DNA from: an uncultured Selenomonadales bacterium
Lineage (GTDB): Bacteria > Bacillota > Negativicutes > Selenomonadales > Selenomonadaceae
DNA: 44,318 bases
NCBI GenBank assembly: GCA_947165295.1
Contig: CAMUZU010000018.1
Coordinates: 1-44,318, forward strand
Direction of reading: 5' to 3'
The translations under genes were made by a program, and so were the position numbers. This document shows positions 10,458-40,057 of this stretch, one piece after another (position 1 is the first letter of the stretch; each line of letters starts with the position of its first letter). Under the pieces are notes generated by a model that saw only the letters and a program-made list of their open reading frames with translations, did no database searches and was not told where the DNA came from.

Positions 10458-11780
10458 GTGGCAAACTTCTTTCGCCTGACAAAGAATCAGCACGTTGAGC
10501 TGGCCGACGGACGCACGGTCACCGTCACCGACAAGTTGGGCGAAGGCGGTCAAGGCATCGTCTATCGCGTGCGCTTCGACACGTGCGAGGAGCGTGCGCT
10601 CAAGTGGTTTTTTATCGGCTACTTGAAAGACCCGCAAAAGTTTTACAGTCGCTTGCAGAAGAACATCGACGACGGCGCGCCTTCGGACGCTTTCTTGTGG
10701 CCGGAGCAGTTGACCAAATACGTCGCAGGCGAACCGTTCGGCTACGTCATGAAACTTTACCCGCAAGGTTACGAGAGTTTCGCGAAGTTCCTGCTTGCCA
10801 AAGTTCAACCTCAAAGCAATGCCGCTTGGGTCAACGCCGCGCTTAACATTGTCGACGCGTTCAAAAGTTTGCACAACAAAGGTTACAACTACCAGGACTT
10901 GAACGACGGCAACTTTTCAATCAATCCGACGAACGGCAAAGTTTTAATCTGCGACAATGACAACGTCGTCCCTTACGGCGAAGAGTCGGGCATTTTGGGC
11001 AAGGCGCGCTACATGGCTCCCGAAGTCGTTCGCGGCGACAAGAAGCCCGACACGCACACGGACGAATTTTCGCTGGCGGTCGTGCTGTTCATGCTGTTCG
11101 TCGGCTATCACCCGCTCGAAGGCAAGCGCACGAATTTTCCCGTGCTGACGACGAAGTACGAGAAACGCATTTACGGCGAGAATCCGCTGTTCATCTTCGA
11201 CGAACAAGACAAGTCAAACGCGCCGCACGAAACGCTTCACAAGTACGCGCCCGCAATGTGGAATAACTTGCCGAGTTTCGTGCGCAAAACTTTTCAACGG
11301 GCGTTCAGTCAAGAAAGCTTGCTTGAAGGTCGCAACCGCCCGCTTGGACAGGACTGGTTCAACGTGCTTGTTCGGCTGAAAAGTTCAATCGTGCGCTGTC
11401 CTTTCTGCGGCGAAGAAATTTTCTTGGAGAGCGACGCGCCGACGACGTGTTACAACTGCAAGCGGTCAATTAAAGCGGCGGGTTATCTGAAGTTCAAAAG
11501 TCGCGCAAGTCAAGAGGTCACCGCGCCAATTTTCAGAGACGCCGTGCTGTACGATTATCACATGGATTCTTCGTCGAAGGACTTCTTGACTGCGGCGGCC
11601 GTCGTCTTGGAAAAGCCCGGCAAGTTCGGCCTGAAGAACAATTCGCGGTCGAAGTGGATTGTCACCACGCCCGACGGCAGAACTTTCACGCGTCAACCGG
11701 GCGAAACTCAAGTGCTCGTCGCCGACTGCAAAATCGATTTCGGCAACGGCAGTTCGGCTCAAGTTATCGTCAACAACTGA
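10458..11780 (+). CDS. Divergent Ser/Thr protein kinase with zinc ribbon (TerY-P-type)
   Basis: A eukaryote-like kinase fold in residues about 20-300: glycine loop GEGGQG (28-33), lysine in RALKWF (K49), and RYMAPEVV in the activation segment. The catalytic loop reads YQDLNDGN (D147, N152) instead of HRDxxxxN, and DFG is replaced by DND (D166). A four-cysteine zinc ribbon follows (C314, C317, C331, C334). The C-terminal 80 residues (GKFGLKNNSRSKWIVTTPDG, ending in IDFGNGSSAQVIV) look like a degenerate FHA-like beta domain. GTG at 10458 is 8 bases after GGAGG; the out-of-frame ATG nearby is ignored. With the next two genes it matches the known kinase / vWA / PP2C triad of Ter-linked systems. 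Confidence 0.82.
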   Translation: MANFFRLTKNQHVELADGRTVTVTDKLGEGGQGIVYRVRFDTCEERALKWFFIGYLKDPQKFYSRLQKNIDDGAPSDAFLWPEQLTKYVAGEPFGYVMKLYPQGYESFAKFLLAKVQPQSNAAWVNAALNIVDAFKSLHNKGYNYQDLNDGNFSINPTNGKVLICDNDNVVPYGEESGILGKARYMAPEVVRGDKKPDTHTDEFSLAVVLFMLFVGYHPLEGKRTNFPVLTTKYEKRIYGENPLFIFDEQDKSNAPHETLHKYAPAMWNNLPSFVRKTFQRAFSQESLLEGRNRPLGQDWFNVLVRLKSSIVRCPFCGEEIFLESDAPTTCYNCKRSIKAAGYLKFKSRASQEVTAPIFRDAVLYDYHMDSSSKDFLTAAAVVLEKPGKFGLKNNSRSKWIVTTPDGRTFTRQPGETQVLVADCKIDFGNGSSAQVIVNN

Positions 11781-11793
11781 AGGAGGCTTTCTC

Positions 11794-12534
11794 ATGGTAA
11801 TGAAACGTCCCGAAATTCCGCGCAAGATGTGCCCCGTGATTTTCCTGCTTGACACGTCGGGCAGCATGGACGGCGCGCCGCTCGGTGCGGTCAATCGTGC
11901 GATAGAAAATGTTTTGCCTGAACTTATCTCGATGAACAACGACAACCCCGACAACGAAATTAAAGTTGCCGTGATGACTTTCGATTACGACGCGAAATGG
12001 ATTGTCGGCGAAACTGAATTGCTGTCGCCCGATGATGTCAGCAAGTCTTGGCGCGACCTTAAAGCCACGGGGTACACGTCAATGGGTGCGGCGTTCCGTG
12101 CGCTCAACGACAAACTTTCGGTTTCGCACGGCTTCATGCAACGCGCTTCGGGCTCCGTGGCTCCCGTGCTGTTCCTGCTCTCCGACGGCGAACCGACCGA
12201 CGATTACAAAGCCGGCTTGCAAATTCTTCAGCAGAACAACTGGTACAAAATCGCCGTGCGCGTGGCTGTCGGTTACGGTGAGGCGAACTATGACATTCTG
12301 CGCGAATTCACGGGCAACGAAGGAACTGTTTTGCACACCAACGACACCGACGAGCTTAAAAACACCATTCGATTCGTGGCGGTCACTTCGTCGCGTGTGG
12401 CAAGTCAAGGCAGCTCCGTTTCGCCCGACGACCCGAACGCCAATCCCGACGACAACACGCAAACCGTTGCCAACGCGCTTCAAAATCAAGGCGGCAACCT
12501 CAACGCCAAGCTTGATCCGGAAGACGACTTCTGA
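11794..12534 (+). CDS. TerY-like von Willebrand factor A domain protein
   Basis: A single vWA domain with an intact metal site: DTSGSM at residues 20-25, the threonine in GYTSMG, and the aspartate in LLSDGEPTDD. In TerY-P systems such proteins scaffold the kinase and phosphatase. The last 45 residues are a polar, probably disordered tail rich in D, N and Q, ending in DPEDDF. ATG at 11794 follows AGGAGG; the long in-frame extension overlapping the kinase is rejected. No signal peptide, so cytosolic. The kinase ends 13 bp upstream and a terminator hairpin follows. Confidence 0.88.
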   Translation: MVMKRPEIPRKMCPVIFLLDTSGSMDGAPLGAVNRAIENVLPELISMNNDNPDNEIKVAVMTFDYDAKWIVGETELLSPDDVSKSWRDLKATGYTSMGAAFRALNDKLSVSHGFMQRASGSVAPVLFLLSDGEPTDDYKAGLQILQQNNWYKIAVRVAVGYGEANYDILREFTGNEGTVLHTNDTDELKNTIRFVAVTSSRVASQGSSVSPDDPNANPDDNTQTVANALQNQGGNLNAKLDPEDDF

Positions 12535-12560
12535 ACTTCCGGCTACACACGAATAACCGC

Positions 12561-12593
12561 AAATCCCTTGAAACACGTTTTCAGGGGATTTTT
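12561..12593 (+). terminator. Intrinsic terminator or attenuator between vWA and PP2C genes
   Basis: A 13-bp stem (12561-12573 with 12579-12591, one G:U pair) closes a 5-base loop and ends in TTTTT. It lies only 29 bp before the PP2C start, leaving no room for a separate good promoter after it, so it may reduce rather than end transcription. Confidence 0.75.
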
Positions 12594-12621
12594 CTAAGTT
12601 CACACGAAAGGAGCCTTTGTC

Positions 12622-13932
12622 ATGAAGTTCAACTTGTTTGCCGAATTCGTGCACGGCAAGAAATATCGCGAACGCGGACTGCCCTGCCAAGATTTTGCCG
12701 CGACGTTGGAATTCGGCGACGTGCAGGCGATTGCAGTTGCGGACGGTCACGGCGGCAAAGATTATTTCCGCAGCGACACGGGCGCACAACTTGCCGTCGA
12801 AACCGCCTTCGAGCTGTTGGAACAGATTTACAACGACGTCGGCAACGTCGAAAAAATTTTTGACGACCGCGGCATTCGCAACTTTGAACTGAGTATCGTC
12901 GAAGGTTGGCGCGAAAAAGTTTTGGCGGACTGGTATCAACGTTTGGACAGCCGCGACAACGAAGTTCGTTGGCAAACCGTCAGCGACAAGTACAAAGCGC
13001 GTTTCACCTCCGACGACGAAAATATTCGCAAGCATTATATCCCCGTCGCTTACGGCACAACTTTGATCTGCGCGGTGTCAATCGGCACGCAAGTTTTAAT
13101 CGTGCAGATTGGCGACGGCAGTTGCGTTGTCCTGCGCCGCGACGGTGATTGGGAAGTTCCCGTGCCGCCCGACAAAGCAAACTTCGCCAACGTGACGACT
13201 TCGCTTTGTGACGAGGACGCCTTCGAGAAGTTCCGTCACATCGTTTTGAACTGCGACGGAAATTCGCCCGTTGCGATTTTCTTGAGCAGCGACGGCCTTG
13301 ACGATTGTTATCCGCTCTTCGACAACGAAAAGCATCTGTTCAAGTTTTATCGCGAAACGGTTATCAACGGCTTGCTTGACGACGGCTTCGACGCGACGGC
13401 GGCAGGCCTGCGCGAAGACATCTTGCCGTACATGACTGAGCGCGGCAGTAACGACGACATTTCGCTTGCGTGGCTGGTGGCGGAGGATTTGGACTTACTC
13501 AAGGCGACAGTCAACGAGCCGCAAGTTCAATCGCCCGTCGAGCCGCAAACTCAATCGACCGTCAACGTGCCGCAAACTCAATCCGTCAACGTGCCGCAAA
13601 CTCAATCGACCGTCACGCCGCAAATTCAAACCGTCATCGAACCGCAAGTTCAATCGACCATCGAACCGCAAACTCAATCGACCGTCGCGCCGCAAACTCA
13701 ATCGACAGTCGCGCCGCAAGCTCAATCGACATTCACGCCGCAAGCTCAATCGACCGTCGCCTCACAAGCTCAATCGACCATCGAACCGCAAGTTCAACCG
13801 ACGCAAAAGCTGACTTCGCCGATGGTCAAGCCGCCGCCGAAAGTTTCGCCCGTCCTCAAAGCGCAGAACATAACGGATTTGCCGCCGACCGTCATTCCCG
13901 CGAAAATCGACCGAAAGGAGCCGCGCCAATGA
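12622..13932 (+). CDS. PP2C-family protein phosphatase with octapeptide-repeat tail
   Basis: A metal-dependent Ser/Thr phosphatase, presumed to oppose the kinase at 10458. PP2C motifs include LPCQDFAATL, the metal-binding VADGHGGKD, IQIGDGSCVVL, LSSDGLDD and GSNDDISLAW, covering residues about 1-290. Residues 296-392 are twelve tandem units of the type STVAPQTQ, an extended Pro/Gln/Thr linker, followed by a basic proline-rich end. ATG follows GAAAGGAG. The last codons overlap the next start (ATGA). There is no membrane segment; the tail may reach a partner or be a phosphorylation target because of its many Thr and Ser residues, but this is inference. Confidence 0.88.
   Translation: MKFNLFAEFVHGKKYRERGLPCQDFAATLEFGDVQAIAVADGHGGKDYFRSDTGAQLAVETAFELLEQIYNDVGNVEKIFDDRGIRNFELSIVEGWREKVLADWYQRLDSRDNEVRWQTVSDKYKARFTSDDENIRKHYIPVAYGTTLICAVSIGTQVLIVQIGDGSCVVLRRDGDWEVPVPPDKANFANVTTSLCDEDAFEKFRHIVLNCDGNSPVAIFLSSDGLDDCYPLFDNEKHLFKFYRETVINGLLDDGFDATAAGLREDILPYMTERGSNDDISLAWLVAEDLDLLKATVNEPQVQSPVEPQTQSTVNVPQTQSVNVPQTQSTVTPQIQTVIEPQVQSTIEPQTQSTVAPQTQSTVAPQAQSTFTPQAQSTVASQAQSTIEPQVQPTQKLTSPMVKPPPKVSPVLKAQNITDLPPTVIPAKIDRKEPRQ
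13507..13797 (+). repeat. Twelve 24-bp coding repeats in the PP2C tail
   Basis: Twelve units of eight codons (one of nine) with consensus S-T-V-x-P-Q-x-Q run without interruption over 291 bp. The units differ by base changes, especially in codons 3, 4 and 7, so the array is not freshly expanded. Its length could vary between strains. Confidence 0.9.
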
Positions 13933-14795
13933 ACAGCTTGACACTTTACGCGTCGACTGAGCCGACCGACCCGAAGACCCGTTACGTGCAGTTGGTGACG
14001 ACGATTTTTTACGAGCTGGTCACGCAAAAGAATTCGCCGCTGTTGTCCGCGCTGTGTCACGTGAATCAAATAAACTTCGCGCCGAAAAACTTCCGACTTG
14101 AACCGTTGCAAGCGGACTTCGCAGTTCCAACGAGCGTGGACTTGTTTCTGTTACTTTACGGGCTCAACGTCGCCGCAGAGGAGAACCTTTCTTCGGTTTG
14201 CAAAGTTTTCGACGAACACGCGGGCAAACAGTTTCCGACGGAGGCACTGCCGGAGATGTGCGACTTCTGCTTGTCGGCTTTGGACAACGGGCTTGCGAAG
14301 TTCACCGCCGACGATTCGCACGTGCTGAAAACTTTGGCGGACGAGCGTCACGCTTCCGACGAAAAAATCATCACCGAGATTAAATCGCTTCAGCTGTCGT
14401 TGCAGGACGAATTGCGGACAATCGCGCAGATTCGCGACGGGCTGGACTTTGCCGCACAACGCGAGCCGATTCGTCAGCTGATTGAACTGTTCGACAAGCT
14501 CAACGAAATTTCGCAACGTCACCCGCTGCCCGACACGCAAAAAGGTTACGGCGAACTTGTCCGACGCTGTCAAAGTCTTCTGCGTTACGTCAAGCAGTCA
14601 CTTGCAATGCTTGGCGCTCAATTCGTCAGCGAAGTCAATGTGCCCGTCAACTTGAACTTGCACGAGACGCCGCCCGATTCGCGACCGACCGACCGTGCAA
14701 CCGTGTCGAAAATTTTGCGCGCAGGCTTCGTTTACAAAGGTCAAGTTATCCGTCGCGCACAAGTTGAATTCGTCGACGGAGGTGACGCGTCATGA
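13929..14795 (+). CDS. GrpE-like protein preceding an Hsp70-like gene
   Basis: A 288-residue protein not annotated by any clear N-terminal family. The C-terminal half resembles GrpE, the nucleotide exchange factor of DnaK: a long helix with IELFDKLNEISQRH, then NLHETPP, and a beta domain VSKILRAGFVYKGQVIRRAQ, matching the GrpE pattern (NLHEAV, then VLQKGY...VIRPA.V). The N-terminal 130 residues are helical and unrecognised. It overlaps the PP2C stop by 4 bp and the Hsp70 start by 4 bp, as expected for an exchange factor made with its partner. The GrpE assignment is by eye; a profile search would settle it. Confidence 0.62.
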   Translation: MNSLTLYASTEPTDPKTRYVQLVTTIFYELVTQKNSPLLSALCHVNQINFAPKNFRLEPLQADFAVPTSVDLFLLLYGLNVAAEENLSSVCKVFDEHAGKQFPTEALPEMCDFCLSALDNGLAKFTADDSHVLKTLADERHASDEKIITEIKSLQLSLQDELRTIAQIRDGLDFAAQREPIRQLIELFDKLNEISQRHPLPDTQKGYGELVRRCQSLLRYVKQSLAMLGAQFVSEVNVPVNLNLHETPPDSRPTDRATVSKILRAGFVYKGQVIRRAQVEFVDGGDAS

Positions 14796-16252
14796 AAGTT
14801 GGCATTGACTTTGGCACGAGTTTTTCGTTGCCTGCCGCGCTGATTAACGGGACGCCCGCGACGCTTCTGCCCGGCGGTCAATACGGCGTGCCTTCGGTCT
14901 TTTACTTCGACAGGCGACGAAATATTTTAATCGGCGAGGCGGCTCAAGCACGCGGCGAAAAATTTCCCCGAAACGTCGTGCGCAACGTCAAGATGGAAAT
15001 CAGCAACCCGAATCAAAAGACGTTCACGCTTGACGGCAAAACCTTCGACAAGAAACAAATCGTCGGGCACATCCTTGGCGAAGTCAAACAGGTTGCGCTT
15101 ATCGGCATTGAACATCGGCAACTTGTGTCGCAGGAAATTGACGGCGCGATAATTTCCGTGCCCGCCGCGTTCAACCTGCGCGAACTGAACTTGATTCGCG
15201 AGGCGGCTCAGGACGTTGCGGGACTGAAAGTTTTCGGCTTCATTCGCGAACCCGTGGCGGCGGCTATCGCTTACTTCAACGCGCCCGCGGGCGAAGACGA
15301 CAAGACGATTCTGGTTTACGACCTTGGCGGCGGCACGTGCGACGTTGCGATTGTCCGTTCCGACAAAAATTCCGACGAGTGGTACAAGGTCATCGATTCG
15401 GACATGTTGCGTATCGGCGGCCGCGATTGGGACAAACTGCTTGGCGAACTCATCAAGCGCAAATGTCGCGAACAGGTGCCCGACATTGAATTTGACTTGA
15501 AGGCGCAGAGCAAAATTCTGGACGTCGCGATTGGCGTCAAACATACACTTTCGCGGCTGGATAAAGCTTTCGCCGAACTTGAACTTGATGACGAGTATTT
15601 TGAAGTCGAGGTGACACGCGCCGAATTCGAGCGGATAACCCGCGAACTTCTTCAGGAAACCATGCGCATGGTTGACAAGCTCAAGAGCCGTTGCCGCACG
15701 AAGATTGATTACGTCGTTTGCGTCGGCGGAAGTTCAAACATGCCGCAGGTGCGCGCCGCCTTCGAGAAAAATTATCCCGACATTGAAATTCGTCTGTTCG
15801 AGCCGGAAAAGGCAATTGCATTCGGCGCGGCGATTTATTCCGAACACGTCACCGAAGAAAATTATCTGCACGACATCTGCAAGTTTTCTTACGGCGCGAA
15901 GTACATTCAAAACTTCAACAGGTACCGCGACCCCGACCGTCTGCGAATTTTCAACATCATCTACAAGGGCGACGAACTGCCCGCCAGCGGCGAATCAACT
16001 TCGTACAGCGTTGACGACGGCGCGGACACTCACATCGAGATTTACGAATCCGAGTGCACGAAGAAAATTTACTTGCCCGAAGACGGCACGCACATCGGCG
16101 AAATTGAAATTCGCGGACTCAAAGGCAGCCGCAAGGACGACGCGACGATTTTAACCGTGACGATTGACCGCAGCGGACTCATGAACCTTAAAGCCGTCGA
16201 CGAACGCACGGGCAAGACCGCCCGCGTTGAAATAAAGCTTAAAGACTTCTGA
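14792..16252 (+). CDS. Hsp70-like ATPase 1 (short, 486 aa)
   Basis: Actin-fold ATPase of the DnaK superfamily. Phosphate 1 is VGIDFGTSFS, phosphate 2 is VYDLGGGTCDVAIV, and the adenosine motif is VCVGGSSNMPQVRAAF. The nucleotide-binding domain covers about 1-370 and a short beta-sandwich substrate domain about 375-486. The alpha-helical lid of DnaK (about 638 aa) is missing. ATG at 14792 follows GGAGGTGACG and overlaps the GrpE-like gene's stop, so the pair is probably translationally coupled. This is the last gene before the internal promoter at 16300. Confidence 0.9.
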   Translation: MKVGIDFGTSFSLPAALINGTPATLLPGGQYGVPSVFYFDRRRNILIGEAAQARGEKFPRNVVRNVKMEISNPNQKTFTLDGKTFDKKQIVGHILGEVKQVALIGIEHRQLVSQEIDGAIISVPAAFNLRELNLIREAAQDVAGLKVFGFIREPVAAAIAYFNAPAGEDDKTILVYDLGGGTCDVAIVRSDKNSDEWYKVIDSDMLRIGGRDWDKLLGELIKRKCREQVPDIEFDLKAQSKILDVAIGVKHTLSRLDKAFAELELDDEYFEVEVTRAEFERITRELLQETMRMVDKLKSRCRTKIDYVVCVGGSSNMPQVRAAFEKNYPDIEIRLFEPEKAIAFGAAIYSEHVTEENYLHDICKFSYGAKYIQNFNRYRDPDRLRIFNIIYKGDELPASGESTSYSVDDGADTHIEIYESECTKKIYLPEDGTHIGEIEIRGLKGSRKDDATILTVTIDRSGLMNLKAVDERTGKTARVEIKLKDF

Positions 16253-16308: not shown

Positions 16309-16335
16309 CGACGCAACTTGAACGGAGGACACACC

Positions 16336-17307
16336 ATGAATATTGACGACGTTGAAACTTTGCTTGAAGGCGTTCTTGACGGCTTGAAGGCGCGCAAACA
16401 GATCGCCCCGCTTCAACAGAAACTGTCCGAACTTGAGACGACGAACGCGACGTTGACCGCCGAACGCGACAAACTCCGCGAAGAAATTTCGTCACTGCAG
16501 GAGCAAGTTAAAGAGTTCACCGACGCGCACGGCGACTTCGACCGCAAGCTTGCCGACGCGCAAAAACAACTCAACGACACACGCGACGACTGCCAACGTC
16601 AACTCAACGAACAGCAGGCGAAATTCGATTGGGAGTTTGCCGCCGTGTGCAGTGAACTTTCCGAGGCGAAGGATTCTTTCCGTCAACAGCTCAAAGACAA
16701 GCAGGCGGACTTCGACAAACAACTTGCCGAGGCGAAGGCGACCGCACGTCAACAGCTTGCCGACCAACGCGATAAATTTCTGCAGGAAATGCGCGAGCAC
16801 AAAGAGGAATTCGACCGCGAAATGTCCAACGTGTGCAATGAGCTTGACGAAGTGCGCAAGGCCGAACGTGCCGCCAAACGCGAAGCCGACTTTTACCGCG
16901 AGACTTACGGCGAACTGGACGCGGCGTACAAAATTTATTCGTCGCTGGACGAGACCACGCGCTTTGACTTGGCGGGCATTTTCGGTGCGGGCGACACGGC
17001 GGCGGGTTTCTTCAGCGGAGCGGTGCAGGAAAGTCATCTGCCGCAGTTTTGGGATTACGTCAGCCGCCACGTCGACGACATGCGCCTTGCCAAACTGTTC
17101 GATTTCTGTTTCGCGGCGGTCAATCGCGGTTTCCGTGAGCCGCCGTACATTCGCCTGAACGTCGAGCGCGGAGCTTATTTCGACGATGAGACCATGCGCC
17201 GCACGTCCCGAAGTCGTCAAAGCGGCAGAGTCAATCGCGTGCTTTTGCGCGGCTATCGTTATTCTTCCGGCAACGTCGTGCGTCAAAGCGTTGTCGAGCT
17301 TGCTTGA
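16336..17307 (+). CDS. Coiled-coil protein with degenerate GrpE-like C-terminus
   Basis: A 323-residue cytosolic protein. Residues about 15-195 are a long coiled coil rich in Q, E, K and D with heptad periodicity and repeated phrases such as QQLADQRDKF and RQQLKDKQADF. The C-terminal 120 residues are globular; the end (GRVNRVLLRGYRYSSGNVVR) follows the GrpE beta-domain pattern V..VL..GY....G.V.R...V, like the protein at 13929. The start is ATG at 16336 after GGAGG. The next gene is a giant Hsp70-like protein 12 bp downstream, so this could be its exchange factor. GrpE homology here is weak and rests on pattern matching. Confidence 0.5.
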   Translation: MNIDDVETLLEGVLDGLKARKQIAPLQQKLSELETTNATLTAERDKLREEISSLQEQVKEFTDAHGDFDRKLADAQKQLNDTRDDCQRQLNEQQAKFDWEFAAVCSELSEAKDSFRQQLKDKQADFDKQLAEAKATARQQLADQRDKFLQEMREHKEEFDREMSNVCNELDEVRKAERAAKREADFYRETYGELDAAYKIYSSLDETTRFDLAGIFGAGDTAAGFFSGAVQESHLPQFWDYVSRHVDDMRLAKLFDFCFAAVNRGFREPPYIRLNVERGAYFDDETMRRTSRSRQSGRVNRVLLRGYRYSSGNVVRQSVVELA

Positions 17308-20784: not shown

Positions 20785-21129
20785 ATGTCGGACTTTTTGA
20801 CGACGCGCACGAAGTTTTTCTGCACGACGGGCACTGCGGTCAACTTCGCGGTTTCTTCGGCGGGTTCAAGCAGCGTCACGCACAAAGGCGACAAAGTCTT
20901 GACGACGGGCGCGAAACTTTCGGCAAGCGGAATCTGTCCGATTTTGACGGCGGCGGCTCAAGGTACTCCGCAACCGTGCAAGTTTAAGCAAACGCCGTGG
21001 GCTCTCTTCGACATGAAGTCTTCGGCGAACGGCAATAACTTGTTGACGGCGAATTCTTTTTGCACGTGTCCGATTGGCGGCATGATTAAAGTTCGTGCGG
21101 CCAATGCACAAGGTTTTCAGACGGTTTAA
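20785..21129 (+). CDS. DUF4280 PAAR-like spike-tip protein
   Basis: A 114-residue protein matching the DUF4280 (PAAR-like) pattern: an early cysteine after a short strand (C13), C51 in SGICPILT, C65 in GTPQPCKF, TPWA, then the paired cysteines C93 and C95 in SFCTCPIGGMIKV. PAAR-like proteins cap the spike of type VI and other contractile injection systems and may carry cargo. No toxin domain is fused. ATG follows GAGGTGATGG, 9 bp after the giant Hsp70 gene. Together with the VgrG-like gene at 23802 this argues for a spike complex. Confidence 0.85.
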   Translation: MSDFLTTRTKFFCTTGTAVNFAVSSAGSSSVTHKGDKVLTTGAKLSASGICPILTAAAQGTPQPCKFKQTPWALFDMKSSANGNNLLTANSFCTCPIGGMIKVRAANAQGFQTV

Positions 21130-23352: not shown

Positions 23353-23366
23353 AAGGAGTTTTGCAC

Positions 23367-23786: not shown

Positions 23787-23801
23787 TTCGAGGTGACGGG
23801 C

Positions 23802-31730: not shown

Positions 31731-32093
31731 ATGGACGACAACCAACAGCAGGCGATTTTCAGCGAACTGTACAATGTGGCGAACAAAATCATCGGCGACA
31801 TTGAAGGCAAGCTGAACTCGACGCGTGACGACTTGCACGGTGCGCTTGACGACTTGCAAAACTTGCGCGACACCAACAGAAATCTTTCGGCGGATCTGGC
31901 GAAGTCTCAGGAAGCACGCCGCCACCTTGAAGAAGAACGAAACAATTTGCGCGAACAAGTTGCCAAACTGACCTCAAACAACACAAAACTCGTGGCGGCT
32001 TTGGAAGCAATGCAGTCGGAACTGTCGCGGACACAGCGTGAAAACAACAACCTGAGCATTAAACTTTCGCAGATAAAATTTTTGGCGGGGTGA
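31731..32093 (+). CDS. Small coiled-coil protein A
   Basis: A 120-residue, almost entirely helical protein. After a short N-terminal helix (IFSELYNVANKIIGDIEGKL) a coiled coil runs from about residue 35 to 115 with repeated L/V/A at heptad positions (RRHLEEERNNLREQVAKL). No membrane segment. ATG at 31731 has GGAGG 7 bases upstream; TTG at 31725 is too close to the ribosome binding site. It lies between Hsp70-like ATPases 4 and 5. GrpE dimers have a long helical stalk, but this protein lacks the beta domain, so I do not call it GrpE. Confidence 0.75.
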   Translation: MDDNQQQAIFSELYNVANKIIGDIEGKLNSTRDDLHGALDDLQNLRDTNRNLSADLAKSQEARRHLEEERNNLREQVAKLTSNNTKLVAALEAMQSELSRTQRENNNLSIKLSQIKFLAG

Positions 32094-32098
32094 TTCGC

Positions 32099-32479
32099 GT
32101 GGATAATTTTGAAGACCTGCGCGAAGTTTTGTCGGCGATTCAGGACATCGGCAACGCGTGGCAGAACGAAAACATTTCGCTTAAGGCGACCAATGCCGAA
32201 CTTCGCAAGCAAAACGACGAACTTCGCCGCGAACTGAAAACTCTTTCGGACGAAGTGCGCAACCTCCAAAAAAAGCTTGACAAACTGCGCGACGAACTGA
32301 TTGGGCAACTCAAAGACGACTTGCGCGAAAATAAACAGTTCATCAAGAACTTTTTCGGCGCGAACGTTTCAAGCGTCGCCACGCAAACCGACACGCCGTC
32401 AACTTCAACAAACACCGACATCAAGCACGACGAGCCGACACCGTCGCAGGAACCCGACACGTCGTCGCGACCGTATTGA
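32099..32479 (+). CDS. Small coiled-coil protein B with disordered tail
   Basis: A 126-residue protein: coiled coil over about residues 15-80 (LRKQNDELRRELKTLSDEV), then a polar tail with TQTDTPSTSTNTD and PTPSQEPDTSSRPY. A similar TQTDTPS phrase appears in the N-terminal linker of the 1043-residue Hsp70-like protein at 34587. GTG at 32099 is favoured (GGGGTG upstream); GTG at 32090, overlapping the previous stop, is an alternative. Unknown function. Confidence 0.7.
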   Translation: MDNFEDLREVLSAIQDIGNAWQNENISLKATNAELRKQNDELRRELKTLSDEVRNLQKKLDKLRDELIGQLKDDLRENKQFIKNFFGANVSSVATQTDTPSTSTNTDIKHDEPTPSQEPDTSSRPY

Positions 32480-32504: not shown

Positions 32505-34568
32505 ATGGTAGTCGGAATTGACTTGGGCACGACCAACACGCTTGCCTGTTATTTCGTCAACGGGCGCAAGAAGCTTTTGAAGTTCGCGGGCGGCGCGACA
32601 ATGTTGCCCAGCGTCATTTTCACGGACGAAGACAACAACGTTATTGTCGGGCAGGCGGCGCAATCACGCGGCATTGTCAAACCGGAACGCATGATTCGTT
32701 CAGCGAAAACTTATATCGGCAACTTCGAGCTGAACAAAACCTGGACGTGCGGCAACCGCAAGTACACGCCCACCGACGTGGCGACCGAAGTCCTCAAGGA
32801 AGTTCGCAAGCGTCTTGTGCGAAACATGCACCTTGACGACAGCGAAGAGATCGGCGCAGTCATCACCGTCCCGGCTTACTTCAACGACAACCAACGCGAC
32901 GAAACGCGCAAGGCGGGCATTGCTGCGGGTTTCAAAGTGCTGTGGATTCTTGAAGAACCAATGGCGGCTGCCGTCGAAGCCGTGCACGAACGTCAACTTG
33001 ACAAGAAAGTTTTCGTCGTGGACATCGGCGGCGGAACCTTCGACCTGAGCGTTTTGGAAGCCGACCACGACAAGCACCTTTACACGGCAATTGCGATTGA
33101 CGGCGACGACAGACTCGGCGGCGACGACTTCGACAAGGCAATTCAACTTGAATTTGTTCGCCACATTGAAGACGACACCGGCATTAAGTTGACCGACGCC
33201 AAAAGTGCCGGCTTGGACGAAAGCGACTACAACATCTTGATGAACCGCCTGCTCGTCGAGGCGCGCCGTGCCAAAGAAGAATTGAGCGGCGACGGCGTGT
33301 TGGAGTGCGACGTTACTTTACCGAACTTGACGACGCTCGGCGGGCAACCGTACGATTTGGATTTCGTCTTCACGCGCAAGGCAATGCTTGACGTTTGCAA
33401 GCCGCTGTTCGACCGCATATTTAACCAGATTAACGACTTTGTCACCGACAACGACAAGTTCACGCTCGCGGACATCGGTCACATAATTTTAGCGGGCGGC
33501 ACGTGCTTTATCCCGTACATCAAAGAGCGCATTGAAAACGACCTCGGCATTCGACCCGACGACGATTTACAGTTAAGTCAACTTGTCGTCAGCGGCGCGG
33601 CTCGCGTTGCACAATCAATCGGCGGCGTCGAAAGCGGCGACACCGAATCCGCCGTAAACCTGCAAAGTATCCTTGCGCATTCGCTCGGCATTGAAATTGA
33701 AGACACACGCGGGCAAGTCGTCTTCGACAAAATTCTTGAGAAGAACACGCTTTACTCTGCGGGCAAGTCCACGCAGGTTTACAAGACGACCCGCGACAAC
33801 CAGACGCAAATTGCGATTAACGTTTACGAAGCCGGCAAAGACGAAGACGCCCGCGACTTGAGCGCACACCGTTTCCGCGGCTCGTTGAATTTGGAAGTGC
33901 CGCCCGCGCCCAAAGGCAAAGAGACCGTTTCCGTCACGTTCGATTACACCGACGGGCAACAGCTTAAAGTCACCGTCACCGACAAGCACGGGCATTCAAA
34001 CTCCGCCGTGTTCAACAAGGAAACCAAAGCGTCGCCCAAGTCCGCAACGGAGCCGCTCGACGTCGTCTTAATGCTTGACTCGTCGGGCAGCATGTCAGAT
34101 CAAATGAATCAAGCCAAAGACGCCTGCCGCAAGCTGATAACCGAAATGTTCGACTTGAGCGTTCACCGCATGGCGTTGATGAGTTTTGACGACAATTCGC
34201 GCATGTTCTGTCACTTGACCAACGACCGACAAGCTTTACTCAACGGCCTTGCGCAAATCAGGCTCGGCGGTTGCACGGAGATGATTAAAGCACTCAGCAT
34301 GGCTTACGGCGAATTGGAAACTTCGTCGCGCAAGAAAGTCGCCATCTTCGTCACCGACGGCTACCCGACAGACAGCCGCGAAGGCACAATTTCCCGCGCA
34401 CAAAAGATTCGCAAGCAGGGCGTGGAGATTTTCGCAATCGGCGTCGGCAAAGGCTTCGACAAAAACTTTTTGAACGACATGGTCGGCACGGACAATTCTT
34501 TTACGATTAACAGCATGAGCGAACTTGCGACGACGTTCGCCGAAGTTGTCGACAAAATCACGCGCTGA
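32505..34568 (+). CDS. Hsp70-like ATPase 5 fused to a C-terminal vWA domain
   Basis: Residues 1-510 are a DnaK-like module: VVGIDLGTTNTLACYFVNG, VITVPAYFNDNQRDETRKAG, VVDIGGGTFDLSVL, HIILAGGTCFIPYIKERI, then a beta-sandwich domain with LAHSLGIEIED and AGKSTQVYKTTRDNQTQIAI. In place of the helical lid, residues 516-687 form a vWA domain with MIDAS elements DSSGSMSD, LGGCTEM and FVTDGYPTD. The metal site appears intact, so it may bind protein ligands. ATG at 32505 follows AAGGAGGAA. The fusion joins, in one protein, the chaperone and vWA themes seen separately at 14792 and 11794. Confidence 0.92.
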   Translation: MVVGIDLGTTNTLACYFVNGRKKLLKFAGGATMLPSVIFTDEDNNVIVGQAAQSRGIVKPERMIRSAKTYIGNFELNKTWTCGNRKYTPTDVATEVLKEVRKRLVRNMHLDDSEEIGAVITVPAYFNDNQRDETRKAGIAAGFKVLWILEEPMAAAVEAVHERQLDKKVFVVDIGGGTFDLSVLEADHDKHLYTAIAIDGDDRLGGDDFDKAIQLEFVRHIEDDTGIKLTDAKSAGLDESDYNILMNRLLVEARRAKEELSGDGVLECDVTLPNLTTLGGQPYDLDFVFTRKAMLDVCKPLFDRIFNQINDFVTDNDKFTLADIGHIILAGGTCFIPYIKERIENDLGIRPDDDLQLSQLVVSGAARVAQSIGGVESGDTESAVNLQSILAHSLGIEIEDTRGQVVFDKILEKNTLYSAGKSTQVYKTTRDNQTQIAINVYEAGKDEDARDLSAHRFRGSLNLEVPPAPKGKETVSVTFDYTDGQQLKVTVTDKHGHSNSAVFNKETKASPKSATEPLDVVLMLDSSGSMSDQMNQAKDACRKLITEMFDLSVHRMALMSFDDNSRMFCHLTNDRQALLNGLAQIRLGGCTEMIKALSMAYGELETSSRKKVAIFVTDGYPTDSREGTISRAQKIRKQGVEIFAIGVGKGFDKNFLNDMVGTDNSFTINSMSELATTFAEVVDKITR

Positions 34569-34586
34569 ATTCGGAGGTGACCTTTC

Positions 34587-37500
34587 GTGAGCAATTCATT
34601 CAAAGACAAGCTGATGACCGCCAACGTTGACGGCGACGCACAAAGAATCGTGCCCGCGCTGTCCAAAGACAAACGGCGGCTCGAAGTCGGCAAGATACAA
34701 AAAATTCTTCGCGACAAGCTCGACATGACGCTCGACATGTCGACGGACGAAGACGTTTTCAACGAACTGAAATCGCTTTCGGGACAGAATTTGCGTTCGG
34801 CATTTAAAGCTTGCGTCGAAAGTTTCGGCGTCACGTGCAACGCGGAGCTGTTGGACAAGTTCAACAAGTCGCGGATATTGGCGTTGTTCTTCCACGTGTT
34901 CGCGGTGTACCCCGAAGCAATTCCGTCGCATCCCGGCACGCAAACCGACACGCCGTCGCAGCCCGACATTGACGCCGAACTGTTCGCGGAAATTTTCCCG
35001 GACTTCACGACAGCAGTTGACGTGGAAGTTTCGGCCGCCGCGAAATTTTTGCCGCCGCAATTCCGAAACGTCAAGTCAACGGACGAACTCGAACAAGCCT
35101 TGACCGCCGAAAAAATTCCGCAGGGAACAATCGTGCGCGACTTCGTCAAACGCGTGCTTGAAACGGCGGGCGTTGACTTCGACGACGTCAAACTTAAATC
35201 CGTCAGCCGCGAAAAATATCTGCCGCTGTTCTTCCACGCGATTAACTTCACGGGCAAAACTTTCGCGCCGAGTCAACCGTCAAGTGAGCCGCAAGAAATT
35301 TTGGATTTGACGTTCGGGCAAGTGCAGGCGATTTTCGACGCCGCCGACAAAGTTCCCGTGGACGACGCGGACTTCGACATTTCCGACACGCTGGAAATCT
35401 TCGAGAACAATTCCGTCACCGTCAAGGCCAAGCTTTATCTGAGCATTCCCGACGACCGACAAATTTTTTACGGGCTGGCGGCTCTCGCCACGCTTGACGG
35501 AAAGATTGCCGCAGTCGGACGCATTGAAGACAACGTTGTCGACGAGCACGGCGGAAAGTTCCCGCACATGATTTTCGATTGGGACAAGATTGACCCCGAC
35601 AAGTTCATCAACCGCAAAAACTTCAAAGCCGTACTTGTGCCGCGTGAAGCTCAAGACTTTTTCGCACGACCGATGTCGCAGGCAATGGCGGAAAGTTTTC
35701 AAGGCGAACTGTGGACGCTGGACTTCGACGTTGTTTATCGTCCGCTTGCAGTCACCGACAGGCCGCTTTGCATTGACTTCGGCACTTCCAACACGACCGC
35801 CGGCACGTTCAACGCGGAGAGCGGCGCGCCCGAACAAGTCACCTTCCGCGACGTGACGAAAGACGAAGTTGCCTTCAGCGAAGTTTTGCCGACGATTGTT
35901 TACGTCGACAGTTGCATTGACGGCCGAGTCACTTTCAAGCACGGCTACGAGGCGAAACGCAAAATTATCGAGGCGGGCTACAACACGAAGGCGACAGTTT
36001 TCTACGAAATTAAACGCTGGATCAATTCGCTTGACGAAGTCGAAGAGGTCACCGACGGCAACGAGACCGCACGCGTCACTCGCCGCGAAATTCTTGCCGA
36101 TTACCTGCGCTTCGTCATCAAGGCCGCCGAAGAACATTTCAGACTCAAGTTCAAAACGTTCCACATGACGTCGCCCGTCAAGCTCAAACGCAAGTTCCTT
36201 GACGAGATGGAAAAAATTTTCGCGTTGCCCGTCTTCAAGCGCGACGGTTATGTCGTCGACAAAGACAGCTTGGACGAAGGACTTGCGACGGTTTACCATT
36301 ACATTGCCGAACGAATCAAGGACGCGGGCGACATTTCGGGCAAGATTTTGGTTTTGGACTGCGGCGGCGGCACCACCGACCTTGCAAGCTGTGATTATTC
36401 CGTGACGCAGGGCAGCGACTGGGCGAACGTCACCTTGCAGACCGACTTCGAGAGCGGCGACTCAAACTTCGGCGGCAACAACATCACGTACAGAATTCTG
36501 CAGATGCTCAAGATGAAAATCGCCGCGAACATTGAACGCAACGAAAACCTTCCGATGCACGACTTGATTCCCGACGAGGACGACGACATTTTAAGTCAGA
36601 TTGACTTCGACATTGCCAACCGCAACGAGATTTATGCGGCGTTCGAGCAGAAGTATCAGCGCGTCGAAGACATTATCCCGACGAAGTTTGCGAACTTTAC
36701 CATGAAGAACGAGCGGCTCAAAGTCAAGCGCAATTTCTATTACCTGTGGCAGCTTGCCGAAGCGATTAAGATTGAATTCTTCAAGTCAAACCTGGTCAAC
36801 GTCGACTTCGAGAAGGACAAGAAAATTTTCGTGCGCAGTCCCGAAGAATATTTCTTGAGCGTGCGGCGCGACGGCAAACTTCAACCGCAGACCGACCCGA
36901 TGGACGGCGTCGAAGTCACCATTCGCGAAATCAGCCGCATTCTGTTGCCCGACCTATACGCGCTGTTGAAGACGTTGCTTGCGCATTACGGCGACAACGA
37001 ACTTTTGCAGTACAAATATCGGCTCAGCGGGCAGTCGTGCAAGATTAACAAGTTCCGCGACCTGTTCAAAGAATTTATCCCCGGCAAGCACATGCGCATT
37101 CCGCACGCACGCGGCGAAGTCACGAAGCGTCACGCCGTCGACAGCGTCGAACTCAAGAAGTATTGCATTCTCGGCAGTATCGAATACGTTTACGACGTGA
37201 AGGCTCGCGGCAAGTACACCGCCAAAATCATGCCCAACATCAACCGACGCATTTACGAAGTCAAAATCGCGCTCGACAACGACGAAACGCTTTTGCTCGG
37301 ACGCGGCGAAAATTTGGGCTTGAAGAAGTTCCCCGGCAAGACGACAATCACCGCAGAATTTCTCGTGCGCAGTGAGACCGGCCACGTCGAACGAAAGTTT
37401 CTTTATCACTTCGACAAGAGCGACGCCGAACGTTGCACAATCCGCGAACTGCTTGACATCATGGCCAAAGAGTCCACGCACAGCCGCGACGTTATCGAAC

Positions 37501-37718
37501 GCGAAATCGGCGAAAAACTTCAGGACATCGACTTGACCGACAAGCAAAGCATTTTGTGTTTCGTCGCGCTCGACTCGACAAGCGGCTACGGCTTCAACAT
37601 TTATCAAATTTGGGCGACGAACGACGGCGGCGCGGTGAAGTTCTGGTTGCCGAAGAAACGCCGCTTCGAGAGCTACGAAGACGAAAACTTGCAGACTTTC
37701 TTCAACGGCGACAAGTGA
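34587..37718 (+). CDS. Hsp70-like ATPase 6 (1043 aa) with long N-terminal region
   Basis: Residues 1-390 are an additional region of unknown family; it contains a linker with GTQTDTPSQPDID near 117-129 and mixed helical/beta parts. The actin-fold ATPase begins near 393 with LCIDFGTSNTTAGTFNAE; phosphate 2 is VLDCGGGTTDLASC near 589. A long, charged insertion (QMLKMKIAANIERNENLPM onward) follows, and the C-terminal 150 residues are beta-rich. I do not find a clear adenosine motif, which may be masked by insertions. The start is GTG with GGAGGTGA upstream. It follows Hsp70-vWA by 18 bp and precedes an unknown gene by 10 bp. Confidence 0.82.
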   Translation: MSNSFKDKLMTANVDGDAQRIVPALSKDKRRLEVGKIQKILRDKLDMTLDMSTDEDVFNELKSLSGQNLRSAFKACVESFGVTCNAELLDKFNKSRILALFFHVFAVYPEAIPSHPGTQTDTPSQPDIDAELFAEIFPDFTTAVDVEVSAAAKFLPPQFRNVKSTDELEQALTAEKIPQGTIVRDFVKRVLETAGVDFDDVKLKSVSREKYLPLFFHAINFTGKTFAPSQPSSEPQEILDLTFGQVQAIFDAADKVPVDDADFDISDTLEIFENNSVTVKAKLYLSIPDDRQIFYGLAALATLDGKIAAVGRIEDNVVDEHGGKFPHMIFDWDKIDPDKFINRKNFKAVLVPREAQDFFARPMSQAMAESFQGELWTLDFDVVYRPLAVTDRPLCIDFGTSNTTAGTFNAESGAPEQVTFRDVTKDEVAFSEVLPTIVYVDSCIDGRVTFKHGYEAKRKIIEAGYNTKATVFYEIKRWINSLDEVEEVTDGNETARVTRREILADYLRFVIKAAEEHFRLKFKTFHMTSPVKLKRKFLDEMEKIFALPVFKRDGYVVDKDSLDEGLATVYHYIAERIKDAGDISGKILVLDCGGGTTDLASCDYSVTQGSDWANVTLQTDFESGDSNFGGNNITYRILQMLKMKIAANIERNENLPMHDLIPDEDDDILSQIDFDIANRNEIYAAFEQKYQRVEDIIPTKFANFTMKNERLKVKRNFYYLWQLAEAIKIEFFKSNLVNVDFEKDKKIFVRSPEEYFLSVRRDGKLQPQTDPMDGVEVTIREISRILLPDLYALLKTLLAHYGDNELLQYKYRLSGQSCKINKFRDLFKEFIPGKHMRIPHARGEVTKRHAVDSVELKKYCILGSIEYVYDVKARGKYTAKIMPNINRRIYEVKIALDNDETLLLGRGENLGLKKFPGKTTITAEFLVRSETGHVERKFLYHFDKSDAERCTIRELLDIMAKESTHSRDVIEREIGEKLQDIDLTDKQSILCFVALDSTSGYGFNIYQIWATNDGGAVKFWLPKKRRFESYEDENLQTFFNGDK

Positions 37719-37728
37719 CGGTGATTTT

Positions 37729-38526
37729 ATGTTCAACAGAAACGAACTGCGCTTTGAACGTCGCTCGATTTTGACGGCGGCGCAACTGCGTGCAATTGAA
37801 AAGTTCCCGCGTGAATTTCTGCGGCTGACCTTCGCGGACTTTGGCGACGGGATTTTAAGCGGGCTCGACTTCGTCACACGCAACGACGAAATTTTTCTGA
37901 CGGCGGGCGTCGTCAAGCTCGGCGAAAAATTTTTCCTCGCGGACGAAATGAATTTGTCGACGCTCATTGACGGCTGCGACGAAGGCAAACGTTATCGCTT
38001 AGTTTTGGGCACGCCGCAACGCACGGCAACCGAAGGCGTCATCAACGAAAAAATTTCGCTCGAAGTCAAACCGCTCGACGAAACTTCCGACGGCGCGGAC
38101 TTCGGTCGCTTCAAGGCGGGAATTGTCAAGTTGCCCGACATCAACGCGGAAAATTTGTACAACGAATTCACGCGCTCAAGCCGGCTGAACTTGTTGCACG
38201 TGCCGCAGGCCGTTCGCGGCGGGACGACGTTTCACCCGACAATCTTCCGCGCAATTTTGTCGCGGCTTCAACACAAAGAAAATCCGTCGCCCGCGGACGT
38301 GGCGTTAATGCTTCGGCTTGCGGACGGCGAACCGCTTTCGTTGCCCGCGCTGAAAATCTTCGTGGAGTGCAAGTCGGTCAAGTGGCGTGACGCGTCGCCC
38401 GAAGAAATTTTCAAGTCGGTGATTGACGCCGTCGACGCCGTGCAGGAAACAGTTTTGCCCGCGCAGATTCACAAGCCCGAAAAAGTTTCCCGGCCGAAGT
38501 CAACGCCCGACGTCATAATCATTTAA
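37729..38526 (+). CDS. Unknown protein; baseplate-like features uncertain
   Basis: A 265-residue protein with no family I can name. Residues 25-110 are beta-rich: LTFADFGDGILSGLDFVTRN, EIFLTAGVVKLGEKFFLAD and YRLVLGTP. The 'start-point, G..., N...FLT.G.VK' layout recalls the first domain of baseplate proteins such as TssK, but the similarity is only impressionistic. The C-terminal part is helical with a polar tail ending PKSTPDVIII. ATG follows GGTGATTTT. It may connect the chaperone genes to the spike module 11 kb upstream. Confidence 0.65.
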   Translation: MFNRNELRFERRSILTAAQLRAIEKFPREFLRLTFADFGDGILSGLDFVTRNDEIFLTAGVVKLGEKFFLADEMNLSTLIDGCDEGKRYRLVLGTPQRTATEGVINEKISLEVKPLDETSDGADFGRFKAGIVKLPDINAENLYNEFTRSSRLNLLHVPQAVRGGTTFHPTIFRAILSRLQHKENPSPADVALMLRLADGEPLSLPALKIFVECKSVKWRDASPEEIFKSVIDAVDAVQETVLPAQIHKPEKVSRPKSTPDVIII

Positions 38527-38539
38527 CGGAGGTGATTTC

Positions 38540-40057
38540 ATGAGCGAACTTAACGACCTGCTCCGCCAAAAGGAGACGCTTGCCTCTCAGCTGTCGCGAA
38601 TTGACGAGTCGGGCGTCGACAAGATTTTGAACGCGATTAAGAGACAACGCTGGTTTTTTTTCAAAAACAAGCCGAAAGTTTTGTTCGACCGCGACACCGC
38701 GCTCCTTTGGGCGAACTTGAAATACTTCCCGTACGGCAAGAACGACAACAACGACTACTATTCGCCCGACGAAATTTTACGGCTGATGGAGTCGACGAAC
38801 TCACGCGGCATTGACAGTTTCAAGAATTGGCGCGTGCCGACGAACTTTAAACTTTGGACGATGATTGCGGACGGAACTTTTCCGTTTCAGTCGGGCATAA
38901 ATCGGCGGATACAAGATCGGGATTTTTGGTGCGTCACGTACAAAGGCAACTTCAGACGCAAAGACCTGGACATCAGCGGCGCAACGAACGGCATTTTGAA
39001 CAGAGGCAATTGCTTTGTCATTCCGTGCAGCAGTGCCGTCGCGCCGAAAGATTACGAGCAAAACGTTTCGCCCGCGAACAAAGTCTACAGCGACAAAGAA
39101 AAAATTTTGATGACACTCAACGTCTTCACGACGAACGGGCTGGAGCCGATTTTTTCCGACGCGACGATAACCGAGCTGTTCCGACAAATTTACATCGTCA
39201 AGCCCGAAGTTCAGCGACAACTGACGGAGATTCAGCAACAGATTGAGCGGCTCAACGAAGTTGAATTGCTTTCGCCGAAACTCGATTGGCTTGCGCTGAA
39301 AACGAAATTTGACCTTGGCGCGGACAAGTCGCCCGTGCGTTACGCCGCGTCGCTGAAAAATTTCACGGAACATCTGCTTGCGAAATTCGACGAGTACACC
39401 GCCGACAAAGCCGACGCGTTGACCGAACTGCAAAGACTTTCGCCGCCGAATGAACTTGTGCCCGACGTCAAACTTGTGCGCAAGGAACTGGACAGTTTCC
39501 GCGACGACGCGCTGAGTTTGGAGGACGCGTTGATACGGACGGCGAGCTTGCGGCGGTTGGCGGAACTGCACGATCAAGTTCGCCCGCCGTTTGAAGTCGT
39601 CGTCGAAACGCTCACCGAAAAAGTTCGCGGCGTCCTGCTGAAAGTTGAATTCTTTGAACTGCAAGCAGACTTCGTGCGTGAAGCGTGCGCGGCGTTCGAG
39701 CTGAAATTCGACTTCCGTGCAGAGTTTTTGAAGCAGTTGCATTTGGCAGACCGTGCGGCGAAAAATTTCCTCGTCGAGCTGGTGCGTTACGTCAAAGCCG
39801 GTCACCTGCAAACGAAAATCGGCGACAACACTGCGGCACGAATCGCGCTTGCGCAGTTGCAAAATTATCGCGAAGCCGTCGCAAACCTGTTCCGCACGTC
39901 GCCGAACGACCCGCACAAGTCGGAAATACTCACGCAGGCTGAGGTGTTGCAGAACAATTTCGCGGAAGTCATCGGCGCGCTTGACGACGAATCGGAACGT
40001 CGCCGCCTGTCGAATTTGATTCGGCAACTGCAAGCTGAACTGAACGACTTGCCTTGA
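38540..40057 (+). CDS. DUF1566-like N-terminal domain with helical C-terminus
   Basis: A 505-residue protein. Residues about 45-170 resemble DUF1566 (lectin-type fold): LLWANLKYFPYG, FKNWRVPTNFKLWTMIADGT, RDFWCVTYKGNF and NRGNCFVIPCSS. The rest is helical with coiled-coil stretches (EVQRQLTEIQQQIERLNEVE at about 222, and SERRRLSNLIRQLQAELNDL at the end). No signal peptide. ATG at 38540 follows ACGGAGGTGA. It is the last gene of the operon and ends 25 bp before the bidirectional terminator. Function is unknown; a sensor or adaptor role is possible. Confidence 0.7.
   Translation: MSELNDLLRQKETLASQLSRIDESGVDKILNAIKRQRWFFFKNKPKVLFDRDTALLWANLKYFPYGKNDNNDYYSPDEILRLMESTNSRGIDSFKNWRVPTNFKLWTMIADGTFPFQSGINRRIQDRDFWCVTYKGNFRRKDLDISGATNGILNRGNCFVIPCSSAVAPKDYEQNVSPANKVYSDKEKILMTLNVFTTNGLEPIFSDATITELFRQIYIVKPEVQRQLTEIQQQIERLNEVELLSPKLDWLALKTKFDLGADKSPVRYAASLKNFTEHLLAKFDEYTADKADALTELQRLSPPNELVPDVKLVRKELDSFRDDALSLEDALIRTASLRRLAELHDQVRPPFEVVVETLTEKVRGVLLKVEFFELQADFVREACAAFELKFDFRAEFLKQLHLADRAAKNFLVELVRYVKAGHLQTKIGDNTAARIALAQLQNYREAVANLFRTSPNDPHKSEILTQAEVLQNNFAEVIGALDDESERRRLSNLIRQLQAELNDLP

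Follow-up and report, generated by a model that had tools for sequence, protein, structure and literature searches.

Hsp70-family ATPases in a contractile injection system locus of a rumen Selenomonadaceae bacterium

The AAA+ ATPase ClpV serves as the recycling motor of the type VI secretion system (T6SS), and the extracellular contractile injection systems (eCIS) possess a tape measure and tail fibres. According to passages of PMC12210884, T6SS i-iii clusters contain an AAA ATPase, and passages of PMC3482391 describe a CDC48-related AAA+ ATPase carried by the PVC system. For Gram-positive bacteria, DUF4280 proteins raised the possibility of a T6SS-like machine in 2016 (PMC5349215). Here, we analysed a contig of 44,318 nucleotides (CAMUZU010000018.1; the whole contig is called the window) from a rumen bacterium of the Selenomonadaceae, whose assembly is 80% complete and consists of 110 contigs. 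The locus at 10-38 kb is, on good support, a Bacillota-type contractile injection system (CIS) accompanied by Hsp70-family ATPases. No description of an Hsp70-bearing CIS in Bacillota was found in the open-licence PubMed Central literature, some searches covering the best-ranked papers only.

The window contains a variant made of three separable modules, the main one being the CIS (Table 1; genes are named by their start positions, L numbers denote loci or contig stretches and G numbers denote genomes). Module 1 comprises TerY-P-like kinase, VWA and PP2C genes together with a GrpE-like gene and the Hsp70 14792. Module 2 is the CIS, including the two large Hsp70-like ATPases 17320 and 34587, and module 3 is a three-Hsp70 cassette (26545-28881-30199-32505) located between 26144 and 34587. 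A sequence-only reading of the same DNA had described six Hsp70-like ATPase genes that looked like one chaperone or signalling assembly. We recovered all six, four of them over the PF00012 cut-off and the two large ones from weak matches and motifs recognised by eye, while the single assembly gave way to the three modules. Beyond the ATPases, that reading had overlooked the genes for sheath, tube, VgrG and PAAR-like tip as well as those for kinase, PP2C and VWA proteins in the locus.

Table 1. Genes of the locus in window order. The 16336 gene is also called 16318 and the 25165 gene 25159.
Feature	Position	Strand	Evidence or remark
Ser/Thr kinase, C-terminal zinc ribbon (CxxC...CxxC)	10404..11780	+	PF00069 2.7e-14
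VWA (TerY-like) protein	11794..12534	+	PF00092 2e-13
PP2C phosphatase, repetitive proline/glutamine tail	12622..13932	+	PF13672 3.9e-37
GrpE-like nucleotide exchange factor	13929..14795	+	PF01025 5.6e-6
Hsp70 number 1, DnaK type without the lid of the substrate-binding domain (SBD)	14792..16252	+	PF00012 3.5e-52
Coiled-coil protein, GrpE-wing-like strand pair at its end	16336..17307	+	wing by eye
Large actin/Hsp70-type ATPase, Hsp70-like number 2, 1151 aa, CIS module	17320..20775	+	HscA/DnaK weak, 1.9e-4 at best
DUF4280 PAAR-like spike tip	20785..21129	+	PF14107 5.3e-8, over cut-off
Contractile sheath, single chain, 734 aa	21148..23352	+	predicted fold
Hcp-like inner tube protein	23361..23786	+	Hcp1 profile match
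VgrG-like spike / baseplate hub	23793..25151	+	PF04717 2.5e-6, over cut-off
Conserved CIS protein, without named family	25165..26151	+	in 70/80 loci
Conserved CIS protein, without named family	26144..26530	+	in 69/80 loci
Hsp70 number 3, first in cassette	26545..28125	+	PF00012 3.6e-51; own clade, SH-aLRT 99
Cassette partner, homologous to 28881	28140..28877	+	hhalign 99.7% vs 28881 family
Cassette coiled-coil partner	28881..30197	+	found in stand-alone cassettes too
Hsp70 number 4, most divergent DnaK type	30199..31728	+	PF00012 1.9e-21; own clade, SH-aLRT 100
Short coiled-coil protein	31731..32093	+	orthologs L018, L136
Short coiled-coil protein	32090..32479	+	orthologs L018, L136
Hsp70 number 5, VWA replacing SBD lid	32505..34568	+	PF00012 1.3e-73, PF00092 4.1e-23
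Large ATPase, Hsp70-like number 6, 1043 aa, conserved across Bacillota CIS	34587..37718	+	in 64/80 loci
Conserved CIS protein	37729..38526	+	directly 3' of 34587 type in 5/5 forty-kb relatives

The sheath that any CIS requires is present, and tube, spike hub and tip, also generally required, lie beside its gene. The top structural matches of the predicted sheath include Streptomyces, PVC and Afp entries; this comparison was a VIA second look at Foldseek's 1000 best chains, whose list gives assembly titles, and the matched chains were taken as sheaths from these titles and their context. A TssB-TssC fusion was the first reading of the sheath and was abandoned: alignments to phage and eCIS sheaths run from about residue 1-11 to 724, those to the four T6SS rows only from 320-347 onwards. 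PF05943 (TssC) has no match in the window's genome at E 0.1, and the two-subunit TssB plus TssC sheath of the T6SS was not found, one chain being encoded here. Searched against 177,635 PDB sequences, the profile of the tube family (28 sequences) gave a single match, Hcp1 (6bdc, E 0.0014), and the invariant W, Y and E of the family align with the W, Y and E of Hcp1. The 23793 product also matches VgrG_rel (1.9e-9, under its cut-off), and VgrG domains over the cut-off occur in G066 too. The DUF4280 tip gene is the sole copy detected in the genome and encodes a bare 114-aa protein. The 25165 and 26144 products are probably baseplate proteins; the 25165 family has no match in the PDB, and neither family matched a 3-sequence TssE set in hhalign. 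By eye, the 37729 product may have a TssK-like N-terminus. No tape measure or tail fibre family was among the Pfam matches, no search having been aimed at them.

The CIS core is widespread in Bacillota. A pattern scan returned at least 181 relatives of the sheath, and 80 loci were kept for counts; by their titles they include Paenibacillus, Brevibacillus, Lysinibacillus, Clostridium, Lachnospiraceae, Ruminococcus, Selenomonadaceae and others. With flanks of at most 10 kb and some loci short, profiles of the window genes detected the sheath in 80 loci (by construction), the tube in 78, the 37729 type in 14 and VgrG in 12; in 40-kb regions from other families the last two types are more distant from the sheath. 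The 26144, 34587 and 37729 types are adjacent in all five such regions, and the first two adjoin each other without the cassette in G248 (a single contig), G105, G066, G039 and G217. Cassette genes occur in 6/80 loci (L017, L018, L021-L024), L019 and L020 being too short to show them and L021, labelled Desulfovibrionaceae, being possibly a mis-binned contig; only L024 of these six has a J protein. Across the phylum, 6 of 299 genomes, the window's own included, carry the 21148-type sheath. A sheath at E <= 1e-10 is found in 42 of the 189 genomes of the order, and in 19 of the 42, again including its own, it is by our reading window-like over most of its length (>=34% identity). The neighbourhood survey that the sequence-only reading had proposed thereby found co-occurrence outside this genome: 18 of the 19 genomes carry a 30199-type Hsp70 (E <= 1e-50), G248 being the miss. 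The sheath and this Hsp70 share one contig in 11 of the 18, always 6.9-8.1 kb apart, and lie on different contigs in the other 7, contig ends not having been checked in each. Judging by their identical contig numbers and nearly identical places, G299, G300 and G302 are probably the assemblies listed as G505, G565 and G522 in the order sample, and they are therefore not independent of it.

Relatives of the tip gene suggest a function for the system. In them the tip is extended by an AHH nuclease domain, over the cut-off in L019, L021 and L024 and under it in L023 and L025; DUF4280 itself is over the cut-off only in L025, and all five match the window tip or DUF4280 more weakly. The gene next to the L025 tip-AHH fusion encodes an Imm11 immunity protein, and from these AHH tips and Imm11 we read the system as an antibacterial injection system. 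The scanned loci L088, G066, L077 and L080 contain genes for FHA proteins, PP2C and kinases. These stand beside the core in subtype B, where some FHA and PP2C proteins have predicted transmembrane segments.

The four DnaK-type genes (14792, 26545, 30199 and 32505) match PF00012 with 76-249 bits, all over the cut-off of 20.6 bits, and their products share 21-32% identity with DnaK. In an alignment with two DnaKs, the SBD-alpha lid and the VLLLDVTP hydrophobic linker are missing from all four, while the catalytic K and E are kept by eye and 30199 contains DFGGSTLD; from this combination we read them as specialised, targeted Hsp70s. In the Hsp70 tree (33 rows; a quick method, with long branches flagged) they form four clades with support (SH-aLRT 95-100), all separate from the DnaKs of seven relatives and each with orthologs in other genomes, which bears out the earlier view of a dedicated rather than housekeeping set. 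A 567-aa Hsp70 near a subtype-B CIS of Cohnella (L080:2413-4116) falls in the DnaK clade on a long branch. Neither 17320 nor 34587 has a Pfam match over the cut-off, and both keep the phosphate-1, connect, phosphate-2 and adenosine motifs of the sugar-kinase/Hsp70/actin fold by eye. All 11 PDB matches of the 34587 family profile are Hsp70s, though weak (E 0.023-1). The 17320 gene has an ortholog in G248 (2.7e-278); the 16336 gene adjoins the 17320 ortholog in L017, L018 and G248, and a relative of it also lies beside the stand-alone cassettes L172 and L173. Of the GrpE-like or coiled-coil neighbours that the sequence-only reading had noted, one is a GrpE just over the cut-off (26.6 vs 25.8 bits, in the 3' part of the open reading frame (ORF) 13470-14795, and recovered in a whole-genome search). 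A GrpE-wing profile test of the 16336 product was weak, and hhalign of 16318, 28140, 28881 and 32090 to a GrpE reference of one sequence gave no decision.

The absence of an HPD-bearing J domain, which the sequence-only reading had pointed out, extends to all 23 locus proteins, and the J-domain matches of the genome all lie on contig C27, beside dnaK, dnaJ and grpE. J-domain ORFs with HPD are present in 70 of the 80 related loci and lie within 1 kb of a tube gene in 64 of these 70; the typical protein is ~150 aa long (PF00226 4.4e-25 in G066). Its absence is a trait of the window's variant. The ten loci without such an ORF are L017-L023, L025, L030 and L053, and L030 is the G039 contig, the wider region of which does hold one. 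The C27 stretch itself (L177, C27:15000-22000) is odd, with grpE, a lidless DnaK-like ORF of 562 aa, a full DnaK of 623 aa, a 216-aa protein with three J-like domains all without HPD, and then dnaJ; the short dnaK may be an assembly artefact, and the doubled dnaK and the HPD-less triple J protein are unusual. Neither an AAA family nor a G....GK[ST] (Walker A) motif occurs in the 23 locus proteins, and no AAA+ ATPase of the T6SS ClpV or eCIS type was found at the locus, the rest of the genome not having been searched for ClpV. The same motif is absent from ORFs of >=200 aa in the 40-kb regions of G248, G066 and G217; in those of G105 and G039 three ORFs contain it, none of them within the core. 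Among 24 gene clusters common to at least 6 of the 80 loci, one small cluster (six loci) has the Walker motif throughout.

Beyond the parts, synteny, predicted sheath fold, modularity and VWA correlation established computationally, we infer an action of the Hsp70s on CIS subunits and its effect. Our preferred reading, held at slightly better than even odds (roughly 0.55), is that Hsp70s, instead of ClpV/Cis15-type AAA+ proteins, supply the ATP-driven handling in this Bacillota CIS. Given a J-protein gene beside the tube gene in most relatives, their most parsimonious task would be to assemble or recycle sheath, tube or spike-effector complexes. The wider family would use one large 34587-type ATPase, mostly with the J protein encoded next to the tube gene; this ATPase may bind sheath, tube or tip-effector subunits, keep them for assembly and recycle them after contraction. 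The window lineage would use 17320 and three lidless Hsp70s with coiled-coil partners in place of the J protein not found, and the VWA domain of 32505 may dock on the CIS. More tentatively, at somewhat under even odds, a widespread class of Bacillota CIS, many of them Gram-positive, may have swapped the AAA+ recycling motor for an Hsp70-J machine, and Selenomonadaceae and a few gut Clostridia may have elaborated up to five specialised Hsp70s, each for a different part or step.

Several points weigh against the Hsp70-driven CIS. The hhalign comparison of the sheath family with TssB and TssC gave <1%, so the sheath identity rests on the predicted fold, and that of the tube with Hcp of Desulfovibrio-class genomes was negative. 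G248 has a CIS and two large ATPases without a J protein or the DnaK-type trio in its 40 kb, and the CIS might still be served by AAA+ proteins from elsewhere in the genome. The degenerate linkers and absent lids imply that canonical client cycling may be lost. The Hsp70 14792 lies outside the CIS operon, its module sitting on other contigs elsewhere. G538, a twentieth genome with a match to the window's sheath, yielded no 30199 type at the cut-off, and its sheath match is a broken piece with three stops at 35% identity; the cassette occurs without CIS genes in 12-20 kb stretches of G543, G529, G535, G509 and G528.

These stand-alone copies favour an alternative that we consider unlikely, in which the CIS is real and the cassette Hsp70s, like the TerY-P/GrpE/Hsp70 block, belong to independent cassettes for stress or signalling that simply came to lie in the same island. 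The stand-alone cassette is a putative separate small chaperone system: L169, L170, L172, L173 and L174 each hold the coiled-coil partner and three Hsp70s (two in L173), and L170 lies beside TrmD, glycosyltransferase and HypF genes. The G528 cassette lacks the 32505 type, and the 26545 type of G543 is split in two ORFs. Seven more genomes have a 30199 type without a window-like sheath, G516 and G528 with a distant sheath on another contig (six of the seven regions were examined, all except that of G541, and the linkage in G516 is unclear). The alternative holds well for module 1, which is a separate TerY-P-like switch that adjoins the CIS here: it lies on other contigs in G300 (L129) and G302 (L130), where the fetched stretches contain no CIS genes, and a short G299 contig (L135) holds its last three genes. 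What argues against independence of the cassette is its constant position in the CIS loci of Selenomonadaceae, Ruminococcus and Hungatella, together with the VWA domain and the inferred order of events. The 32505 type has a C-terminal VWA in 6/6 other CIS-linked copies that reach the 3' part (L131, L132, L133, L134, L136 and L176) versus 0/4 stand-alone ones; L171 (G516), with a VWA and an unclear CIS link, was left out, and a short ORF without VWA (L136:3091-4281) was uncounted. A concatenated tree of 14 loci (13 labelled rows, G516 being unlabelled) has two changes between the linked and stand-alone states, and under the midpoint root, at which the long-branch G303 and G304 meet, both stand-alone groups are nested among CIS-linked loci, so that the stand-alone state arises within linked ones. 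In this tree G301 and G528 have no 32505 row and G543 is represented by the first of its two 26545-type ORFs. As to the 32505 type itself, the G300 ortholog (L131:11888-15079) is 1063 aa long with two in-frame Hsp70 matches followed by VWA, and two adjacent ORFs match this gene in G299 (L136).

It is rather improbable that the large ATPases 17320 and 34587, instead of being chaperones, form filaments or scaffolds of the actin/ParM kind by which the CIS is positioned or anchored. The weak matches of 34587 include a phage partition-protein family at 1.9e-5, besides DnaK at 0.026 and SrfB at 0.036; long non-Hsp70 regions flank the ATPase core, and hydropathy predicts no transmembrane segment in the 23 window genes, which is also what was observed with regard to the TssJLM membrane complex of the T6SS, Tss families not having been searched genome-wide. 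This is countered by the uniformly Hsp70 PDB matches, weak as they are, by the J proteins of the relatives, which point to an Hsp70 cycle, and by the membrane-spanning FHA and PP2C proteins predicted in subtype B, where another anchor is thus possible.

An anti-phage defence island of the TerY-P/CoCoNuT type is very unlikely. The TerY-P triad is present, with VWA, PP2C and kinase-zinc ribbon in a row, and Hsp70 and coiled coils accompany it as in the type II/III-A CoCoNuTs described in passages of PMC11090510. The kinase matches PADLOC PD-T4-6 at 2.6e-15, and 28881 weakly matches LmuB/DruC (1.5e-5). The Hsp70-like proteins match PADLOC models weakly (best 7.5e-8) or not at all, the 23 genes include neither a Walker A protein nor a match to McrB/McrC, and the sheath, tube, VgrG and tip would be left unexplained; neither the McrB-type GTPase nor the McrC/CnuC expected of a CoCoNuT was found among these genes, and this reading was dropped. 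Least probable and already disfavoured is the view that the tail genes are what remains of a decaying prophage tail or R-tailocin that captured chaperones. The single-chain sheath is closer in span to phage/eCIS than to TssB/TssC, but the core is conserved over many Bacillota families, no relative of the sheath is encoded on a viral contig (0/147 candidates), and a secretion-type system under maintenance would account for the PAAR-toxin fusions and immunity gene as well as for FHA, kinase and PP2C.

For module 1, the zinc ribbon of the kinase was seen by eye, PF14369 giving just 0.044, under its cut-off, and the true start of the kinase is probably near 10458; it and the TerY-like VWA protein have orthologs in L129 and L130. 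Downstream of the CIS, window 38540-40057 encodes a 505-aa protein with a weak Lcl_C match (0.0045, under the cut-off) and no relative in the 80 related loci, which may be cargo or unrelated. It is followed by a NERD nuclease + UvrD-like helicase + TPR protein at 40123-42390 on the minus strand, adjoining minC-like (42485) and minD/ParA-like (43205) genes. Among the relatives, the Hungatella locus has, upstream of its tip-AHH gene, a kinase (L024:2160-6545) that combines an NB-ARC/STAND-type domain with a weak TPR match, and two tandem Hcp-like tube genes occur in many Clostridia-type loci (L071, L074, L084, L088, L094, L095 and others).

The locus and its relatives supply a gene set for the T6SS-like machine suspected from Gram-positive DUF4280 proteins: sheath, tube, VgrG, tip, kinase/PP2C/FHA control and a toxin-immunity pair. 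The system is testable because it is found in culturable Paenibacillus and Brevibacillus. If an Hsp70-J machine does replace ClpV, it would be a new way of powering a contractile nanomachine, and one island with six different Hsp70-like lineages would offer a natural experiment on how Hsp70s specialise.

Compared with the T6SS, this CIS shares the Hcp-like tube, VgrG and PAAR-like DUF4280 tip, the tip-toxin fusions and immunity gene of its relatives and, in subtype B, the kinase, PP2C and FHA genes by the core. It differs in its single-chain sheath in place of TssB and TssC, in the absence of any AAA or Walker A protein from its 23 genes, in its Hsp70-like ATPases with a J protein in most relatives, and in its Gram-positive hosts. 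The single-chain sheath is shared with eCIS and cytoplasmic CIS (Afp/PVC, Streptomyces); the tape measure and fibres of eCIS were not recognised here, and Afp/PVC differ from the locus in its DUF4280 tip and Hsp70s and, as passages of PMC3482391 state for PVC, in their AAA+ protein. The names TerY-P and Cis15 are found among passages of the sources consulted, which comprise PMC7159879, PMC11090510, PMC3482391, PMC5014421, PMC8213781, PMC12210884 and PMC9230969. Module 1 shares VWA, PP2C and kinase-zinc ribbon with the CoCoNuT TerY-P, but its partners are GrpE and a lidless Hsp70 instead of McrBC; the CoCoNuT Hsp70 unit, in passages of PMC11090510, is fused to McrB- or CnuC-type proteins, or CnuD. 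The GAP1-N2 GTPase systems, as described in passages of PMC7159879, combine HSP70 and GrpE, sometimes with a second HSP70 without a peptide-binding domain. The pairing of HSP70 with GrpE is common to them and the window, in which no GTPase was found among the genes and CIS genes are present instead. Finally, the housekeeping DnaK/DnaJ/GrpE set on C27 shares the nucleotide-binding domain motifs with the locus Hsp70s, which differ from DnaK in their separate clades, missing lid and degenerate linker, and in having no J protein in the locus.

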